64,000 bases of DNA. It comes from Actinomycetota bacterium (GTDB taxonomy: Bacteria; Actinomycetota; Actinomycetes; Propionibacteriales; Propionibacteriaceae). Positions 49,674-58,979 of this stretch are shown one piece after another. Each line of letters begins with the position of its first letter. Position 1 is the first letter of the stretch. Made by a program: the position numbers and the translations under genes. The stretch spans positions 1 to 64,000 of the forward strand of contig JAIUOR010000022.1 of the NCBI GenBank assembly GCA_020161795.1, given 5' to 3'. Below the pieces are notes generated by a model that did no database searches, was not told the DNA's origin, and worked only from the letters and a program-made list of their open reading frames with translations.

Positions 49674-49826
49674 GGGTGGCTCCCTTCGGCCCGTCGAGCC
49701 TAACCGGCCGGACGGGCCGCGGGCGCCACTCGCGGATCTTCCTGGTCAGCCTGCCGACCAGGATCGCCGTGGCATGGCCGGCGCGCGTGCCCGTGCCCCC
49801 GGGCTGCTCAGGTGCGGCGACCGCCG

Positions 49827-50204
49827 TCAGTCGGGGGCGTTCACCAGGAAGCCGGCGGCCCGGGTGACGTACTCGCGGAACTCGGCCAGTTCGGGGGCCG
49901 GCAGCCCGAGGGAGTCCAGCGCCGCATTCATGTGGACCAGCCAGCGGTCCCGCTGGGCCGGCGTCACGGCGTAGGGGGCGTGCCGGATCCGTAGCCGCGG
50001 GTGTCCGCGCGTCTCGGAGTAGGTGTGCGGGCCACCCCAGTACTGCTCCAGGAACAGCCGCAACCGTTCGGCGGCCGGCTCCAGATCCTCCTCTGGATAG
50101 AGCGCCCGCAGCGGCGGATCCTCCGCGACCCCGGCATAGAACCGCGCCACCAGGCGGCGGAAGGTCTCCTGCCCGCCGACCCGCTCGTAGAAGGTCTCCG
50201 TCAC
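49827..50204 (-). CDS. group II truncated haemoglobin
   Basis: A 125-aa haem protein with a two-over-two globin fold. It shows FYERVGGQETFRRLVARFYAGVAEDPPLRALYPE, the conserved YWGGPHTYSETRGHPRLRIRHAPYAV with the proximal His, and WLVHMNAALDSLGL with the distal Trp. Such proteins (GlbO) bind oxygen and peroxide and often serve in oxidative or nitrosative stress. The GTG at 50204 begins at the conserved TETFYERVGG; the ribosome site is weak (GGGGGA). It is divergent from the Cys-leader gene at 50307. Confidence 0.9.
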   Translation of the reverse strand: MTETFYERVGGQETFRRLVARFYAGVAEDPPLRALYPEEDLEPAAERLRLFLEQYWGGPHTYSETRGHPRLRIRHAPYAVTPAQRDRWLVHMNAALDSLGLPAPELAEFREYVTRAAGFLVNAPD

Positions 50205-50306
50205 TCCCCCATCGTGCCAGACCGGCAAGCGGCCCCGACTCCGGGATCACCCGGCCCAGTCCCAGCATGCAGACGCGAACCCGGCCGCGCGGCCCCCGAC
50301 TGCACC

Positions 50307-50387
50307 ATGATGGGCATGAGTCTGGTCTGGGTGGGCACTGTGGCTGGCGCCGTGCTCCCGGGTTGCTGTTGTCGAATGTCGCGCTGA
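50307..50387 (+). CDS. polycysteine leader peptide gene, copy 1 (26 codons)
   Basis: A short frame ending GCCCRMSR, with three consecutive Cys codons eight to six codons before the stop. A second locus at 52747-52827 has the same length, the same start context (ACCATG, six bases, ATGAGT) and the identical last eight residues, while the middle differs. A start at the second shared ATG (50316) would give 23 codons. GTCGA within the Cys-codon region can pair with TCGAC after the stop. Cys-rich leaders of this type regulate sulfur genes by attenuation in mycobacteria. The gene lies 63 nt upstream of a TudS-related gene, so cysteine-responsive control of that operon is proposed. Confidence 0.6.
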   Translation: MMGMSLVWVGTVAGAVLPGCCCRMSR

Positions 50388-50450
50388 CATCCGCTCGACC
50401 CCGCTGCCAGCACCCGCGCCCGAACGGCCGGACCACACCGAAGGACTCCC

Positions 50451-51095
50451 ATGACACCCTCCACCGAAGCGAACCCGGCGACCTCGGGTGAGACTCCCCG
50501 GCGCCTCCTGATCGTCTCCCACTGCGTCCTGAACCAGAACGCGGTCGTCCAGCCGCTGGCTCGCAGCGCCGGCGTCATGCGCAGCGCCGCGGAGTGGGCA
50601 CTGGACGCCGGCTACGAGATCTTCCAGCTGCCCTGCCCCGAGTTCCGGTTCGCGGGTCCGCACCGTGCGGGGGCGTCCTTCGACGACTACAACACCACCG
50701 CCTTCCACTCCTCGAACGCCCGGTTGCTCGACTCGGTGATCCGGCATCTCCTGCGCTACCGGGAGGCCGGTTACGAGATCGTCGGCGGGCTGCATGTCCA
50801 GGGCAGCCCGGCCTGCGATCCGGATACCGGCAACTGGGTCACGGATCTGCTCGACGCAGCGGCCGCGGCCGGCATCGAGATCCGTCAGCTGTGGCAGTTG
50901 CCACAGACCGCGACGGGCGAGTTTCGATCGGGTGACTCCCAGGTGAGTTTCGGCGACCCGGCCACCCGCCGCTGTTACCCGGACGACGCGACCAGCCTGA
51001 CCCCCGCCCAGGCCGAGCGCCGCGCGGCGCTCGCCGCGACCCGGATCATCGGTCCCACGCTTCCGGTCAATCGGACGGGAGCCCGGCATGCCTGA
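50451..51095 (+). CDS. TudS-related putative desulfidase (DUF523-like)
   Basis: A 214-aa cytosolic protein. LLIVSHCVLNQNAVV (Cys about 24), QLPCPEFRFAG (Cys about 63) and GLHVQGSPACD (Cys about 124) are the three Cys-containing motifs that in TudS-type desulfurases hold a [4Fe-4S] cluster acting on thio-compounds. The resemblance is to the CD3072-type relatives of TudS. It probably removes sulfur from a thiolated substrate, which is inferred. The ATG follows GAAGGAC. A polycysteine leader lies upstream and a second, divergent homologue overlaps its end by 8 nt. Confidence 0.75.
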   Translation: MTPSTEANPATSGETPRRLLIVSHCVLNQNAVVQPLARSAGVMRSAAEWALDAGYEIFQLPCPEFRFAGPHRAGASFDDYNTTAFHSSNARLLDSVIRHLLRYREAGYEIVGGLHVQGSPACDPDTGNWVTDLLDAAAAAGIEIRQLWQLPQTATGEFRSGDSQVSFGDPATRRCYPDDATSLTPAQAERRAALAATRIIGPTLPVNRTGARHA

Positions 51096-51507
51096 GACCG
51101 AGGTCGATCTGCGCCGGTGGCGGATCCTGCTGCTCAGCCACGACGTCTTCACCACCCCGCAGGCCGGCCCGGTGGTCGACTGGGCCGCCCGCCACGACGC
51201 CGGGCTGTATCAGCTGCCCCTGCCCGCCCACGCGCTGCGGCCGCGGACCCCGGCCGGGCGCAGCATCCCGCCGCGGGTGGCCGAACTGCGTGAGGAGGAG
51301 GCCGGACTGGGCGCGGTGTTCGCCGACATCGCCAGCTATCTCAGTGCCGGCTACCACCTGCTGGGGCTGGCGATCACCGCCACGACCACTCGCACCGCGG
51401 CCGGACGCGCCTGGCTGCAGCGGGTGCGGCGGCTCGCCGCCGAGACGACCGGTCAGGAGCTGACGACCTGGGTGCTGCCGGCGCTCCCGGAAACACTCCA
51501 GCCGTAG
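51088..51507 (+). CDS. short TudS-related protein lacking the cysteines
   Basis: A 139-aa cytosolic protein. Its layout echoes the preceding protein (RILLLSHDVFTTPQAG for LLIVSHCVLNQNA, GLYQLPLPAHALRP for EIFQLPCPEF, YLSAGYHLLGLAITATTT for YREAGYEIVGGLHVQG), but none of the three motif cysteines remains. It may be a non-catalytic subunit that pairs with the Cys-bearing partner. The 8-nt overlap between the genes supports a complex. This relation was seen by eye and would need an alignment. Confidence 0.6.
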   Translation: MPETEVDLRRWRILLLSHDVFTTPQAGPVVDWAARHDAGLYQLPLPAHALRPRTPAGRSIPPRVAELREEEAGLGAVFADIASYLSAGYHLLGLAITATTTRTAAGRAWLQRVRRLAAETTGQELTTWVLPALPETLQP

Positions 51508-51574
51508 CGGTCCTCCCGGGGCGACGACGGGACGCAGGCTGTGCTGGCTCGGCGGTTGGGCGTACGGTGACGCC

Positions 51575-52639
51575 ATGTCCCATGGCGAGACAGCGCTCTC
51601 GGGCCGCATCGATGCGGCCATCCGCGGGCTCACGCCCGGGTACTTCGCGCTCGTGATGGCCACAGGCATCGTCTCGGTGTCGCTGCGGACGACCGGCTGG
51701 GCCCTGGCGTCGACCGCACTGCTGGTGATCGCCGCCGTCGCGTACCTGACCCTGATCGCGCTCACCATCGTCCGCGCCGTGCGGCATCGCGACGCGATGG
51801 CCGCCGACTTCGCCGACCCCGCCCGCTCCTTCGGGTTCTTCACCTTCGTCGCCGCGACCTGCGTGCTCGGCAGTCGGCTGACCCTGTCGGGCTGGCACGC
51901 TCCCGCGCTCATTCTGCTGCTGGTGGGCGCGATCGCCTGGATCGTGCTCGGCTACACCGTGCCCTGGACCGCGGTGATCGGCCGGAGCGACCCGACCGCG
52001 CTCGGCACGGCGAACGGCACCTGGTTCATCTGGGCGGTGGCCAGCCAGTCCATCGCCGTGCTGGCGGCCACGCTGGAGGCCGAGCTGAACGTGGCCCGCA
52101 CGGCGATGGCGCTGCTGGCGGTGTTCTCGTGGTCGGTGGGGGTCTTCCTGTACTGCGCCGTCGGGGTGCTGATCGGCGTGCGGATGCTGGCCCATCCCTT
52201 CCGGCCGGAGGATCTCACCCCGCCGTACTGGGTCGCGATGGGCGCAACCGCCATCACGGTCGTGGCGGGAGCGCGCATCGTCATGATGGCCGACGCCCCC
52301 ATGGTCGATGCGACCCGCGGCCTCATCGCCGGGGCCTCGGTCTTCTTCTGGGCGTTCGGAACCTGGCTCATCCCCCCGCTCATCGCCGCCGGGTACTGGA
52401 AGCACGTGCGGCACCGCATCCCGCTGCGCTACGAGGCCACCCTGTGGAGCATCGTCTTCCCGCTCGGCATGTACGGCGTCGGTTCTCAGTTCCTCGGCGA
52501 GGTCGACCGCCTGCCGATCGTCCATGCGATCGGGTTCGGTGAGAGCTGGCTCGCGCTGGCCGCCTGGGCCGCGACCTTCGTCGCCATGCTGGTGAACGTG
52601 TGGCGAAGAGTGCTCCGGCCCGCCGGCGACCCCCGTTGA
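51575..52639 (+). CDS. TDT-family transporter (TehA/SLAC1/sulfite-exporter type)
   Basis: A 354-aa inner-membrane protein with ten expected helices. The opening LTPGYFALVMATGIVSVSL, then RSFGFFTFVAATCVLGSRLTL and the late PLGMYGVGSQFLGEV match TDT transporters, a family including TehA, anion channels and fungal sulfite exporters. The substrate is not shown; sulfite or another sulfur anion would fit the TudS-related neighbours. TACGGT (51563-51568) lies 6 nt before the ATG, so it can have its own leaderless promoter. It is followed after about 107 nt by the second Cys-leader copy. Confidence 0.83.
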   Translation: MSHGETALSGRIDAAIRGLTPGYFALVMATGIVSVSLRTTGWALASTALLVIAAVAYLTLIALTIVRAVRHRDAMAADFADPARSFGFFTFVAATCVLGSRLTLSGWHAPALILLLVGAIAWIVLGYTVPWTAVIGRSDPTALGTANGTWFIWAVASQSIAVLAATLEAELNVARTAMALLAVFSWSVGVFLYCAVGVLIGVRMLAHPFRPEDLTPPYWVAMGATAITVVAGARIVMMADAPMVDATRGLIAGASVFFWAFGTWLIPPLIAAGYWKHVRHRIPLRYEATLWSIVFPLGMYGVGSQFLGEVDRLPIVHAIGFGESWLALAAWAATFVAMLVNVWRRVLRPAGDPR

Positions 52640-52746
52640 TTCGGCGACGCGGAGCCCGCGCCGCAGCCCCGAACACGCCCGGCTGCGAGCGCACCGTCCC
52701 ACGATGCAAGACTTCGGCTCGGCGGTTGGGCCCGCGAACTGCCACC

Positions 52747-52827
52747 ATGGCTGCCATGAGTCCGAACCAGGCGCGCGCTGCCGCTGTCGCCATGGTTCTG
52801 GGTTGTTGTTGTCGAATGTCGCGCTGA
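52747..52827 (+). CDS. polycysteine leader peptide gene, copy 2 (26 codons), orphaned
   Basis: A frame of the same length as the one at 50307-50387 and ending in the same GCCCRMSR; the 3' stretch GTTGTCGAATGTCGCGCTGA is nearly unchanged while the middle codons differ freely. GTCGA / TCGAC pairing after the stop is kept. No same-strand gene follows: the next sequence is the broken 3' end of a gene on the other strand. It may have lost its target gene when the arsenic island arrived. Confidence 0.55.
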   Translation: MAAMSPNQARAAAVAMVLGCCCRMSR

Positions 52828-52839
52828 CACTCGACCAAC

Positions 52840-53182
52840 CCCTCCGCCGACGTCCGGGCACACCGTGCCCTTGATGCGGAACGACCATCAGATCGACCGC
52901 GACATCGCTGGCGGCGACCCAGCGACCGGGGTTGGGGCCGGGAACGAACCCCGCCCCGCGCAGGAGCGAGCCGATCTCGGGCACGTCGGCCAGCCCGCGG
53001 GTATCGATCGCGAGGTCGGCGTCGGTCGTCATCAAGGGCACGTTGAGGTCGGCATCACCGGTGTGGTGGTAAACGGCCTGGGCGCCGACCAGGATGAGGC
53101 TGGGAAGGTGGTACGTCAGTGCTTCGAGGGCGTCCAAGAGGACGCGGCGGGCGGCGACATACTCGGGGGCGACGGCGTCCAT
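52840..53182 (-). pseudogene. nucleotidyltransferase-like toxin gene, 3'-truncated
   Basis: About 105 recognisable residues of a nucleotidyltransferase-fold protein: LPSLILVGAQAVYHHTG (the G-A-x pattern of the active site), then MTTDADLAIDTRGL with the paired Asp, and DVAVDLMVVPHQ with the third acidic residue. Relatives of this kind are normally over 200 residues. After about 52,860 the frame stays open but the protein becomes unrelated and runs antisense over the Cys-leader copy. The start codon is one base after the stop of the regulator gene, so it was the second gene of a two-gene unit. The junction marks a probable recombination end. Confidence 0.7.
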
Positions 53183-53183
53183 G

Positions 53184-54254
53184 TCACTCCTTCCACGACG
53201 GATCGATCGAGGCCAGGGCGTCCATCAGCTGCTCGGCCTCGGCGTCCGAACGGCCGGGCAAAGTCAGCAGGTCCGCCACCACCAGCGCTGTGGGTGCGAG
53301 GGTGGCAGGTTCACCGGGGCCGGGCAGGATCCGTCCATCTTGGGGGGCGGCGATGACCACGTTCGCGGTCGCCGCGTCGGCCTCCACCAAGCCCAGTTGC
53401 TCGGCCAGCCTGCGAGGTGAGGCCGCGTACAAGGCGAGCAGCCGCAGCGGGACCACCGACGTCTTGTCCGGCGGCAGCAGCCTGCGGGCCGCGGCCGAGC
53501 CCGTCACCGCCACGCCCTCCTGCTCAGCGACCCGGTCGATGACCTGCGCCAGCCCCCGCGGCGCGAGCCAGTACGCCACAGCCGGGTTGGTTGTGGCGTA
53601 CCCGTAGTCCTGCGCCCAGCGCCGCAGCAACGAACGCCGTCGCACGTTCGACACGGCGCCGCGCGCGTCCCGGTCGACGATCCCTTCAGCGGCCAGCGTG
53701 GTGAGCAGCTTCGACACCGACCCGGGCGAGACCTGCGCCACACTGGCCAACTCCCGGACACCGACCGGCACCTCGACCTCGGACAGGGCGCGGATCACGC
53801 GACTGGTAGCCACCCCGTTCAACCGGACCACCGCAGCAGACTCCGGAGCACGAGGAGAGCGCTCCGCCCCCTCACCAGTCAGAAGGATCAACGGGTCGTC
53901 CGAGACCAAGCGCACCCAGCCCGTCGCGTCGACGTAACTGATCCCGGCCTCTGTCAGGGCGCGGCGGGTGGCGGGGCCGAGGTAGTCCGCGACGAACAAG
54001 ACCGGGAAGCCCGTCTCCCGCTGTTCCCGCAGGGCTGCCACGGTATCGGCGAGCGACCTCCCGCCCGCCCGCTTTGCCTCGACTCTGTAGGTGACGCCCA
54101 CCCCTGCCGGCCCCCTCACCGACAACAGCACATCACTCGCGTACCGGGCGGCGCCGTCGGTGAGGTTGGCCGTCCACGCGCGCGGCAGCAGCTCCCTGAC
54201 CTGACGTATGGCATCCTCAAGCAGAAGTGTTTCCGGGCGAGCATCGTTTCTCAT
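53184..54254 (-). CDS. winged-helix regulator/antitoxin-like protein paired with a nucleotidyltransferase
   Basis: A 356-aa protein. Residues 1-140 resemble a restriction-endonuclease-like or AbiEi-type N-terminal region (SDVLLSVRGPAGVGVTYRVEAKRAGGRSL with an E-x-K pair, then FPVLFVADYLGPATRRALTEAGISYVDATGWVRL). A winged helix follows (about 160-215, VGVRELASVAQVSPGSVSKLLTTLAAEGIVDRD). The C-terminal third has no name I can give. Coupled to a nucleotidyltransferase gene it looks like the antitoxin of an AbiE-type pair, an inference from organisation. The start at 54254 overlaps a dyad. Confidence 0.68.
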   Translation of the reverse strand: MRNDARPETLLLEDAIRQVRELLPRAWTANLTDGAARYASDVLLSVRGPAGVGVTYRVEAKRAGGRSLADTVAALREQRETGFPVLFVADYLGPATRRALTEAGISYVDATGWVRLVSDDPLILLTGEGAERSPRAPESAAVVRLNGVATSRVIRALSEVEVPVGVRELASVAQVSPGSVSKLLTTLAAEGIVDRDARGAVSNVRRRSLLRRWAQDYGYATTNPAVAYWLAPRGLAQVIDRVAEQEGVAVTGSAAARRLLPPDKTSVVPLRLLALYAASPRRLAEQLGLVEADAATANVVIAAPQDGRILPGPGEPATLAPTALVVADLLTLPGRSDAEAEQLMDALASIDPSWKE

Positions 54255-56837: not shown

Positions 56838-58979
56838 GTGTCCGACATCCCCATGCCAGCGTCGCCGCGTGCGCAGCGGCTCCTGATCGTCGGGGCGGTC
56901 GCCGCCGGCACGTCGGTGGGCGCCAAGGCCCGTCGCAACGACGAGGAGATGGAGATCGTGATCTACGAGCGGGACCGGGACATCTCCTACTCCGGGTGCG
57001 GCCTGCCGTACTTCATCGGCGGGACCGTGCCCGACGCCGACGACCTCCACCCCCGCGACCCGGCCTGGTTCGCCAAGCGCTACAACATCGACATCCGCAC
57101 CGGCCACGAGGTGATCAGCGCCGACCCGGCCGGCCGGACCCTCCAGGTTCGCGACCTGTCCTCCGGCGAGGTGACCACGGACCGCTACGACAGCCTCGTG
57201 CTCGCCACCGGCGCCACCAGCATCATCCCGCCGGTGCCCGGCGTCGACCTGCCGGGAGTCTTCGCCTTGCGCAGCGTCCGCGACGCCGAGGCGATCAAGG
57301 GCTGGCTCGACGACGCCTCGCCCAAGCAGGTCGTGGTCGTCGGATCCGGCTTCATCGGCCTGGAAGTGGCCGAACAGCTGGTGACAAGCGGGATCGGCGT
57401 CACCCTGGTCGAGCGCCTCCCGCAGGTCATGCCGGCCCTCGACGCGGACATGACGTTCCGCGTCCAGGAGGAACTCGAGCGCCACGGCGTGACCGTACGG
57501 CTCAACACGTCCATGGCCGGACTCCAAGGAGACACCCGGGTCTGCGGCGTGCGGCTCGACACCGGCGAACTCATTGCGGCGGAGCTGGTGATCCTTGCCG
57601 TCGGTGTGCGGCCCAACACCGACCTCGCGCGCGACCTCGGAGTGACCATCGGCGAGACCGGCGCGATCGCCGTGGACCCGTCCATGCGCACCAACGTCGA
57701 GGGCGTCTTCGCGGTCGGTGACTGTGCCGAAAGCTACTCGGTGATCACGGGCCGGCCGTTGTGGCGGCCGCTGGGATCGACGGCGAACAAGATGGGGCGA
57801 ATCGCCGGCGACCAGATCACCGGAGGCACCACCCTGGAGCATCGCGGGATCCTGGGCACCGGCATCGTGCGGGTGTTCGAACTGGCCGTCGGCCACACCG
57901 GGCTCACCGAGACGCAGGCCCGCGCCGAGGGATTCGACCCGGTCGTCCTGCACAACACCAAACCGGCCCACGCGACCTACCTGGGCGGCAAGGAACTCAC
58001 CATCAAGGCCGTGGCCGACCGCGCCTCCGGCCGACTCCTGGGCGCCCAAGCCGTCGGACCACAGGGAGTGGACAAGCGCATCGACGTGCTCGCCACCGCG
58101 ATCACCTTCGGCGCGACCGTCGCTGACCTGTTCCACCTCGACCTCGCCTACTCACCGCCCTTCGCCACCACGAAGGACCCGGTCCACTACACGGGCATGG
58201 CGCTCGAGACCGCCGTCCGCGGACGAGCTCCATTGATATCGCCCACCGACCTCGATGAGCGGCTGGCGCGAGGCGAGTGGATCCAGATCGTCGACGTGCG
58301 CGCCGCGAAGGACTACGCCAAGGGCCACCTGCCCGGGGCGGTGAACATCCCGCTGGCAGACCTGCGGCGGCGCGTCGGCGAACTCGACCCACAGGTGCCG
58401 ACGGTCACGTACTGCAACAAGGGCGTGACCGGGAACGCCGCCCAGAACGTCCTGCTCGCCCTCGGCCTCGCTGAGGTGATGAACCTGTCGGGCGGCAACA
58501 GCACCTACCAGACCCACACCCGCCAGCTGCAGAGGGCGACCTCCCTCCCGAGCACGATCAAGCCAAGCCACCTCCCCCATGTGCTGTTCCTCTGCGTGCA
58601 CAACGCGGGCAAGTCCCAGATGGCCGGGGCCCTGATGCGCCACCTGTACGGCGACCGGATCGTGGTGACCACTGCCGGCACCGGACCCGACGACGCCGTC
58701 GACGACGCGTCGGCGCGCATCGTCGCCGAGCTGGGCGCCAGCACCGCCGGGGAGCACCCCAAGGCCGTGACCGCCGCCATGCTGGACGCAGCCGACCGCA
58801 TCATCCTCATCGGCCCCGATGTCCAGCTGAACCCACCCGAGCCGCTGGCCGACCGCGTCGAGCGCTGGCCGATCCACGACCCGGCCGACGACGGCATCGA
58901 GGGCGACGAACGGACCCGCAACATCCGCGACCAGATCGCCAACCGGGTGCACGCACTCGCGACAGAACTGACCAGCTGA
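56838..58979 (+). CDS. CoA-disulfide reductase / rhodanese / LMW-phosphatase (ArsC-like) triple fusion
   Basis: A 713-aa three-domain protein. Residues 1-455 are a flavin disulfide reductase of the CoA-disulfide reductase type, with Cys about 54 in SYSGCGLPYF, NAD-binding GSGFIGLEVAE and VFAVGDCAE. Residues 465-555 are a rhodanese domain (IVDVRAAKDYAKGHLPGAVNIP) with Cys about 526 in YCNKG. Residues 580-713 are a low-molecular-weight phosphatase/ArsC domain whose P-loop reads CVHNAGKS, with Lys at about 592 in place of the catalytic Arg. The GTG start follows AGGAGG by 5 nt. As part of the arsenic island it may supply electrons or sulfur for metalloid chemistry; whether the third domain is active is doubtful. 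Confidence 0.87.
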   Translation: MSDIPMPASPRAQRLLIVGAVAAGTSVGAKARRNDEEMEIVIYERDRDISYSGCGLPYFIGGTVPDADDLHPRDPAWFAKRYNIDIRTGHEVISADPAGRTLQVRDLSSGEVTTDRYDSLVLATGATSIIPPVPGVDLPGVFALRSVRDAEAIKGWLDDASPKQVVVVGSGFIGLEVAEQLVTSGIGVTLVERLPQVMPALDADMTFRVQEELERHGVTVRLNTSMAGLQGDTRVCGVRLDTGELIAAELVILAVGVRPNTDLARDLGVTIGETGAIAVDPSMRTNVEGVFAVGDCAESYSVITGRPLWRPLGSTANKMGRIAGDQITGGTTLEHRGILGTGIVRVFELAVGHTGLTETQARAEGFDPVVLHNTKPAHATYLGGKELTIKAVADRASGRLLGAQAVGPQGVDKRIDVLATAITFGATVADLFHLDLAYSPPFATTKDPVHYTGMALETAVRGRAPLISPTDLDERLARGEWIQIVDVRAAKDYAKGHLPGAVNIPLADLRRRVGELDPQVPTVTYCNKGVTGNAAQNVLLALGLAEVMNLSGGNSTYQTHTRQLQRATSLPSTIKPSHLPHVLFLCVHNAGKSQMAGALMRHLYGDRIVVTTAGTGPDDAVDDASARIVAELGASTAGEHPKAVTAAMLDAADRIILIGPDVQLNPPEPLADRVERWPIHDPADDGIEGDERTRNIRDQIANRVHALATELTS

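Follow-up and report, generated by a model that had tools for sequence, protein, structure and literature searches.

What are two short reading frames with the same cysteine-rich ending doing beside putative desulfidase genes in an actinobacterial genome? The window analysed here, a stretch of 64,000 nt of Propionibacteriaceae DNA (assembly GCA_020161795.1, contig JAIUOR010000022.1, positions 1 to 64,000 of the forward strand), carries two such frames, and a sequence-only reading had taken them for leader peptides whose runs of cysteine (Cys) codons control a sulfur operon. We consider it likely that both frames encode cysteine-sensing leader peptides at the 5' ends of mRNAs that are probably leaderless, with attenuation as outlined below. 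Conservation and gene context support this reading; the idea is less new than had been stated, and the pairing of the two leaders around one operon was not borne out. The elements concerned are the following.

50316..50387, plus strand: leader open reading frame (ORF) 1, 23 codons, MSLVWVGTVAGAVLPGCCCRMSR followed by the stop; start set from relatives
50364..50372, plus strand: Cys codons TGC TGT TGT of leader 1, the putative regulatory run
50373..50378, plus strand: CGA ATG of leader 1, the near-invariant arginine-methionine (Arg-Met) codon pair of the class
50303..50308, plus strand: -10-like hexamer CACCAT, 13 nt upstream of the leader 1 ATG
52756..52827, plus strand: leader ORF 2, 23 codons, MSPNQARAAAVAMVLGCCCRMSR followed by the stop; apparent orphan
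52804..52827, plus strand: core TGTTGTTGTCGAATGTCGCGCTGA of leader 2
52743..52748, plus strand: -10-like hexamer CACCAT upstream of leader 2

Both frames, with their shared GCCCRMSR ending, are present in the sequence as had been described, and they are far beyond chance. A 24-base core occurs at only two sites in the window at up to 3 mismatches (expected, 0.02; none of 100 shuffles contained two), and at up to 2 mismatches these are the only sites genome-wide; the core TGYTGYTGYCGNATGTCNCGNTGA has two copies in the window and two in the 3.47-Mb genome of the source. The frames had been drawn as 26 codons from 50307 and 52747, and the start must be moved to the in-frame ATG 9 nt later (50316 and 52756), which leaves 23 codons. 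ATGAGT is the leader start in four relatives of the same genus (G009, G011, G014 and G017) and in one of the same family (G136), and a [T/C]ANNNT hexamer starts at -12 or -13 of the leader ATG in all seven leaders. The ATG chosen earlier overlaps this -10-like hexamer in both window copies, which suggests that the transcripts of both 23-codon leaders are probably leaderless. A sigma-70 scan of 50150-53200 gave no full promoter match, and none of 4227 Rfam covariance models matched 49800-53200 at E ≤ 5.

The frame is conserved in relatives, a point on which the sequence-only reading had made itself depend. It is open in all seven close leaders, whose only indel is of 3 nt (a one-codon in-frame insertion in G014). 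They all keep the start, a near-constant length, Arg-Met-Ser, the stop and a Cys run, which reads CCC in five leaders, CRC in that of G014 and CC in that of G136; the peptides end in CRCRMSN in G014, CCCRMSF in G017 and GCCRMSR in G136. The middles of the two window frames had been said to diverge as real coding sequence does, and the comparison did not agree: substitutions at codon positions 1, 2 and 3 number 6, 7 and 3 between leaders 1 and 2, and 1, 3 and 1 between leader 2 and the G009 leader. They are not concentrated at third positions, and third-position bias was given up as coding evidence. The leader middle appears free of amino-acid constraint, with start, frame, core and stop being kept, as one would expect if the peptide of the leader were not itself the product. 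The GTCGA/TCGAC pairs pointed out earlier do exist (50371/50395 and 52811/52831); they are not a conserved helix, as TCGAC follows the core in three of the seven aligned rows (leaders 1 and 2, and G136). Three adjacent cysteines near the COOH-terminus might instead suggest small cysteine-rich proteins acting in trans, for example by metal or redox binding, and a similar Cys-rich small ORF bears ribosomes in M. smegmatis (PMC4633059; published work is cited throughout from extracts of the sources). Given that the peptide middle is free to change and that length and context fit cis leaders upstream of sulfur genes, we regard such proteins as very improbable.

Leader 1 had been said to precede a gene for a TudS-related putative desulfidase, and both a profile match and its position, ending 63 nt upstream of that gene, agree.

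50451..51095, plus strand: TudS-related putative desulfidase (CD3072-like), the first gene after leader 1; profile NF045597
51088..51507, plus strand: second gene, a weak TudS-like paralogue (pairwise E = 0.09) without any cysteine

The product of the first gene matched NF045597 over residues 17-149 with E = 9.2e-36 and 122.8 bits, just below the curated cut-off of 130 bits, and gave no Pfam match at E ≤ 1; it is a relative of the CD3072 TudS-related desulfidase, not a formal member of the family. The order of the two genes is the same in G009. The second gene product has no cysteine ligands to offer an iron-sulfur cluster; it is perhaps a partner subunit. A short ORF rich in Cys codons upstream of pathway genes, as expected of an attenuator, is found at leader 1 (CCC in 23 codons); sulfur genes also lie downstream of the G009 leader, not of leader 2, and the ORF is conserved in relatives.

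Codon choice in more distant leaders provided the observation that appears to us the strongest of the new ones, namely the near-perfect conservation of CGA after the Cys codons. The pattern TGYTGYMGNATGTGYNNNTGA was matched in 69 of 249 genomes of family f39 (perhaps Microbacteriaceae), and 39 of the 40 matched loci that were retrieved and read (L301-L340) are leaders ending in CCRMCx before the stop; the exception, L331, has CGT and is not a leader. The Arg codon after Cys was CGA in 68 of the 69 f39 matches listed and in all 39 leaders read. In the family of genome G583, metL, the Streptomyces leader discussed below, was matched in 21 of 200 genomes, all of a single genus that the metL peptide marks as Streptomyces-like, with CGA in 21 of 21. 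For both counts the search pattern was open to any CGN or AGN; CGA was built into the patterns of the class-wide TGYCGAATGTSNNNNTGAC scan, the own-genome scan and some others, which are no test of CGA. Across 33 window ORFs with high G+C content at third codon positions, CGA accounts for 61 of 1100 Arg codons and TGT for 13 of 111 Cys codons. Among the Cys codons of the 39 f39 leaders TGT accounts for 78 of 117, and among those of the seven close leaders for 19 of 21. Window genes, rather than genes of f39 or the metL genus, are the baseline for both codons, and the related genomes are not independent. Neighbouring Cys codons alternate between TGT and TGC in the f39 leaders while CGA stays. 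In a his leader-peptide assay, CGA is read poorly and slows translation (PMC4046918). We infer that it may slow the ribosome where the Cys run ends; in none of the papers listed by our literature search did we recognise a description of CGA in Cys leaders. The conserved short frame, the Cys run, the sulfur genes downstream and the rare TGT and CGA codons together argue for a cysteine-sensing leader.

The same data could be read differently, with the shared element being a DNA or RNA motif (an operator or structured RNA) and the frame incidental. The core is near-identical in DNA, CGA-ATG is near-invariant, the middle codons lack amino-acid constraint, and a separate operator-like motif lies upstream.

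52698..52712, plus strand: operator-like CCCACGATGCAAGAC, at -58 relative to leader 2; relatives carry a similar sequence and leader 1 a degenerate one

With the query TCCACGATGCGAGAC, which was taken from G014 and so scores 15 of 15 there by construction, similar motifs were found at -57 to -69 of leader 2 (13), G009 (14), G011 (13), G136 (12) and two Sinomonas leaders (11 each), with lower scores for G017 (10), leader 1 (9), G272 (9) and the metN leader of the window's own genome (7); scores of 11 or more occurred in 25 of 2000 random windows. This upstream motif may be the operator of a shared regulator. The f39 leaders, however, keep the CCRMC end while TGT and TGC switch (the search pattern prescribed C, C, M, C and the stop, and not the switching), and the close leaders keep start, frame and stop, with an indel of whole-codon length. 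An incidental frame is thus improbable in our judgment.

The putative cysteine-sensing leaders extend to other sulfur-related genes, beginning with a third example in the same genome.

G000:C36, locus L255, 1516-1602: third leader of the window's own genome, before metN-, metI- and MetQ-like genes

Its peptide, MPVFTTACRIARLHCAAPAMMCMRMCCC, ends in MMCMRMCCC. A pattern search of this genome returned 14 rows, of which 5 came from the three leaders, 8 were chance-like and 1 was ambiguous. The ambiguous row (L265, about position 1503 of G000:C38) is a frame ending in RCRM with a CGAATG core, 47 nt before a helix-turn-helix (HTH) gene, and no -10-like box was seen before its possible starts. The leader in G272 (ending CCRRMSG) lies upstream of a MetQ-like lipoprotein gene and that in G023 (CCCRMCG), by reading, upstream of genes for a MetQ-like lipoprotein and an ATP-binding cassette (ABC) ATPase; the G020 leader ends in CCCRMCPRG and two Sinomonas leaders end in CCCRMSS. 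The Streptomyces-type metL belongs to the class as well, a near-identical copy, L247, ending in CMCRMCAF with a CGA-ATG-TG core. A run of three Met codons stands about 9-11 codons before the Arg codon in 35 of the 39 f39 leaders, and a leader with this run may respond to methionine in addition to cysteine. The gene that follows the leader encodes a Trans_reg_C (OmpR-type DNA-binding) domain at both f39 loci tested (L270 and L271) and at one Sinomonas locus. Among 394 class-wide genomes, TGYCGAATGTSNNNNTGAC was found at 19 places in 18 genomes: 2 in the window, 11 in f39 leaders and 6 chance-like. Around MetQ matches, no leader was seen within 1.5 kb for 30 loci, and longer upstream regions of 20 places gave four. 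A contig scan matched at least 117 stretches, mostly by chance; 80 were read, and 13 were read in more detail (7 of these among the 80), with 31 of L138-L174 left unread. Of the matches from other scans that are not named here, some were read in part, and L175-L198 were left unread.

How might such a leader control the gene behind it? Unsupervised consensus folding of the seven leaders with RNAalifold predicted a helix, P1, between GAGUCC at the 5' end and GGACUC at the Shine-Dalgarno (SD) sequence, together with P2 within the leader, P3, in which GGGUUG of the Gly-Cys codons pairs with CAACCC downstream of the stop, and a small hairpin at the stop codon.

50318..50323, plus strand: 5' arm of P1, GAGTCT (predicted helix)
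50443..50448, plus strand: 3' arm of P1, GGACTC, overlapping the SD of the TudS-like gene (predicted helix)

The inner six pairs of P1 can form in all six rows that have an SD; three single substitutions lead to G-U and none breaks a pair. When each of these 6 leaders is folded on its own, the minimum-energy structure contains P1 in 5. Under the proposed mechanism, with enough Cys-tRNA the ribosome would clear the leader, the mRNA 5' end (AUGAGUCC) would pair with the SD (GGACUC), and the first gene would be off. When cysteine is scarce, a ribosome would stall on UGU-UGU-UGU-CGA, held at the end of the Cys run by the slow CGA codon, and later ribosomes would queue back to the start; the 5'-end:SD helix would then be prevented and the sulfur-releasing genes translated. 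When cysteine runs short, leader 1 would in this way raise the TudS-like desulfidase and possibly the transporter, and leader 2 would be a remnant whose operon was lost or replaced. In the folding model, blocking the RNA with a stalled and a queued ribosome lowered the cost of opening the SD by more than 2 kcal/mol in three of six leaders (G009, G014 and G017) and hardly in G011; in G136 blocking ribosomes did not lower it. Fold z-scores were -2.61 for G014, -2.46 for G009, -2.07 for G017, -1.47 for G011, -0.62 for G136 and +0.76 for leader 1. At the window's own copy the mechanism is our inference.

Several results weigh against the SD-sequestration mechanism, or against the reading as a whole. 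Leader 1 folds no better than its shuffles (z = +0.76, and +2.06 for a longer stretch), and its SD opening cost was not lowered by a stalled and a queued ribosome (1.88 to 2.58 kcal/mol). G136, folded alone, does not form P1 at the SD; depending on the folded length, its 5' end pairs either with a GACUC immediately before the SD or with nothing. One pair of P1 changed on both sides; the covariation score was matched in 177 of 500 shuffles, and the paired cells in 41 of 500. Covariation this weak does not establish the fold. We found no conserved downstream partner that would explain CGA, such leaders were recognised in 7 of 30 genus genomes with the patterns used, and induction of the desulfidase by cysteine shortage is assumed.

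Two further pairings were set aside as features of the class. A downstream Watson-Crick partner CATTCG for CGAATG occurred in 4 of the 39 f39 leaders (shuffle mean, 1.57; maximum, 7), CATTCG being found after the leaders in both Sinomonas and at four loci of one f39 genus, and an AUGUC:GACGU hairpin fails, by reading, in the M-C forms (AUGUG).

The same sensor could also act through transcription termination, either Rho-dependent or by competing hairpins, rather than through the SD. Rho was proposed for actinobacterial cys leaders by Seliverstov et al. (PMC1262725), P1 is weak at leader 1, and the G272 leader before MetQ (L074, 120-207, the same as L057) has a competing-hairpin layout in which CTGACAGCAC overlaps the stop and GTGCTGTCAG lies 68 nt further on. 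A simple scan, in which Rho sites were not searched for, revealed no terminator-like site in the stretch from leader 1 to the TudS-like gene, however, and P1 is a helix common to the close relatives. We therefore regard a termination output as rather unlikely and retain SD sequestration as the proposed output of the cysteine-sensing leader.

Leader 2 is a separate case. The sequence-only reading had the two leaders standing around one operon, and leader 2 has no plus-strand gene of its own: it lies after the SLAC1/TDT gene, all genes recognised after it are minus-strand genes, and neither a plus-strand gene nor an SD is recognisable after it in the window. One of the minus-strand genes has a weak nucleotidyltransferase match below the cut-off, and one, of HTH type, has a weak AbiEi match.

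51575..52639, plus strand: SLAC1/TDT family transporter (PF03595, E = 1e-44; tdt model below cut-off), possibly the third gene of the operon
49827..50228, minus strand: bacterial-type globin gene, divergent from leader 1

With 5 differences, leader 2 resembles the G009 leader more than leader 1 does, and it runs into unrelated sequence, with no likeness by eye to the G009 leader-gene junction past about 52866. It seems to be an orphan that lost its partner gene, and leader 1 looks functional by its context. That leader 2 still works, for example by attenuating an antisense transcript against the convergent minus-strand genes, would fit its upstream motif and leader sequence, both closer to the relatives than those of leader 1; the loss of likeness to the G009 junction and the lack of a recognisable SD or plus-strand gene leave this little probability. 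Elsewhere in the window, the long ORF at 56838-58979 has, by reading, parts resembling coenzyme A-disulfide reductase and rhodanese and an ArsC-like phosphatase end.

In G009 the corresponding leader heads a longer operon.

L033, 6589-13504: leader-headed operon of G009

The gene order is a divergent globin (similar, by reading, to that of the window), the leader, a thioester-domain (TED) gene, an SrpI-type encapsulin, a cysteine desulfurase (Aminotran_5), a PALP-plus-rhodanese gene, TudS and TudS2. This operon might encode a cysteine-controlled sulfur compartment, and an SrpI/desulfurase pair of S. elongatus rises on sulfate deprivation (PMC8049743). Encapsulin was found in 5 of 30 genus genomes, the window's own not among them, and a TudS-like gene in 2 of 30, the window's own and G009. 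Given the absence of encapsulin and the G009-like context, leader 1 occupies the place of the G009 leader minus the encapsulin part; it may have arisen by deletion or by duplication. In G011 (L032, 3594 onward) and G017 (L034, 9311-9505), a small protein that starts with MALLIE and contains VPxGGxLxFPGAPxGIA directly follows the leader; that of G017 gave no Pfam match.

Taking the wider set together, we propose tentatively, as a reading that falls just short of even chances, a widespread actinobacterial leader class marked by Cys (and Met) codons and a near-invariant UGY-CGA-AUG brake, which would control a desulfidase, a sulfur-storage encapsulin operon, a methionine importer and an OmpR-type regulator gene, and whose leaderless 5' end would sequester the SD in the window's close relatives. 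If this is true, cysteine-responsive leaders extend to desulfidase and encapsulin operons, the Streptomyces metL is to be re-read as a sensor of cysteine or of cysteine plus methionine, and a precise test becomes available of why one rare Arg codon is kept after the sensing codons. TGYCGAATGTS provides a sequence tag for listing candidate members of the sulfur regulon.

Propionibacterium acnes belongs to the same family as the window's genome. Cys leader peptides were predicted in 2005 for P. acnes, mycobacteria and Bifidobacterium (B. longum), and these resemble the present leaders in having Cys runs near the stop and no conserved terminator hairpin but stand before cys/cbs genes, a comparison made by description only (PMC1262725); further background on Cys leaders is given in PMC4633059, PMC9094748, PMC9031893 and PMC13236596. 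The mycobacterial polycysteine short ORFs (Canestrari et al. 2020, Mol Microbiol 114:93, cited in PMC9031893, PMC9094748 and PMC13236596) are leaderless, as the leaders here probably are, with contiguous Cys codons before cysteine genes and attenuation by cysteine supply; compared again by description only, the leaders here differ in ending with CCRM plus one or two residues, in their near-invariant CGA-ATG, and in their targets, which are TudS, the SrpI encapsulin operon, MetQ/MetNIQ and an OmpR-type regulator. The leader uORFC-8-2 before cysS in Rhodobacterales shares tandem Cys codons and ribosome-mediated attenuation, whereas it belongs to Alphaproteobacteria, has an intrinsic terminator, carries its Cys codons at positions 14-15 and prefers UGC (PMC8632094). 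The metL of Streptomyces lividans TK24, a leader described in 2021 before metNIQ, ends in CMCRRMCAF and contains several methionines and threonines; it is leaderless, as the present leaders probably are, whereas Cys sensing and CGA are not mentioned in the extract and leader 1 of the window precedes a desulfidase-like gene (PMC8079986). The candidate leaders described here are of a known kind, and what sets them apart is the end of the peptide, the further target genes and the constraint on a rare codon.

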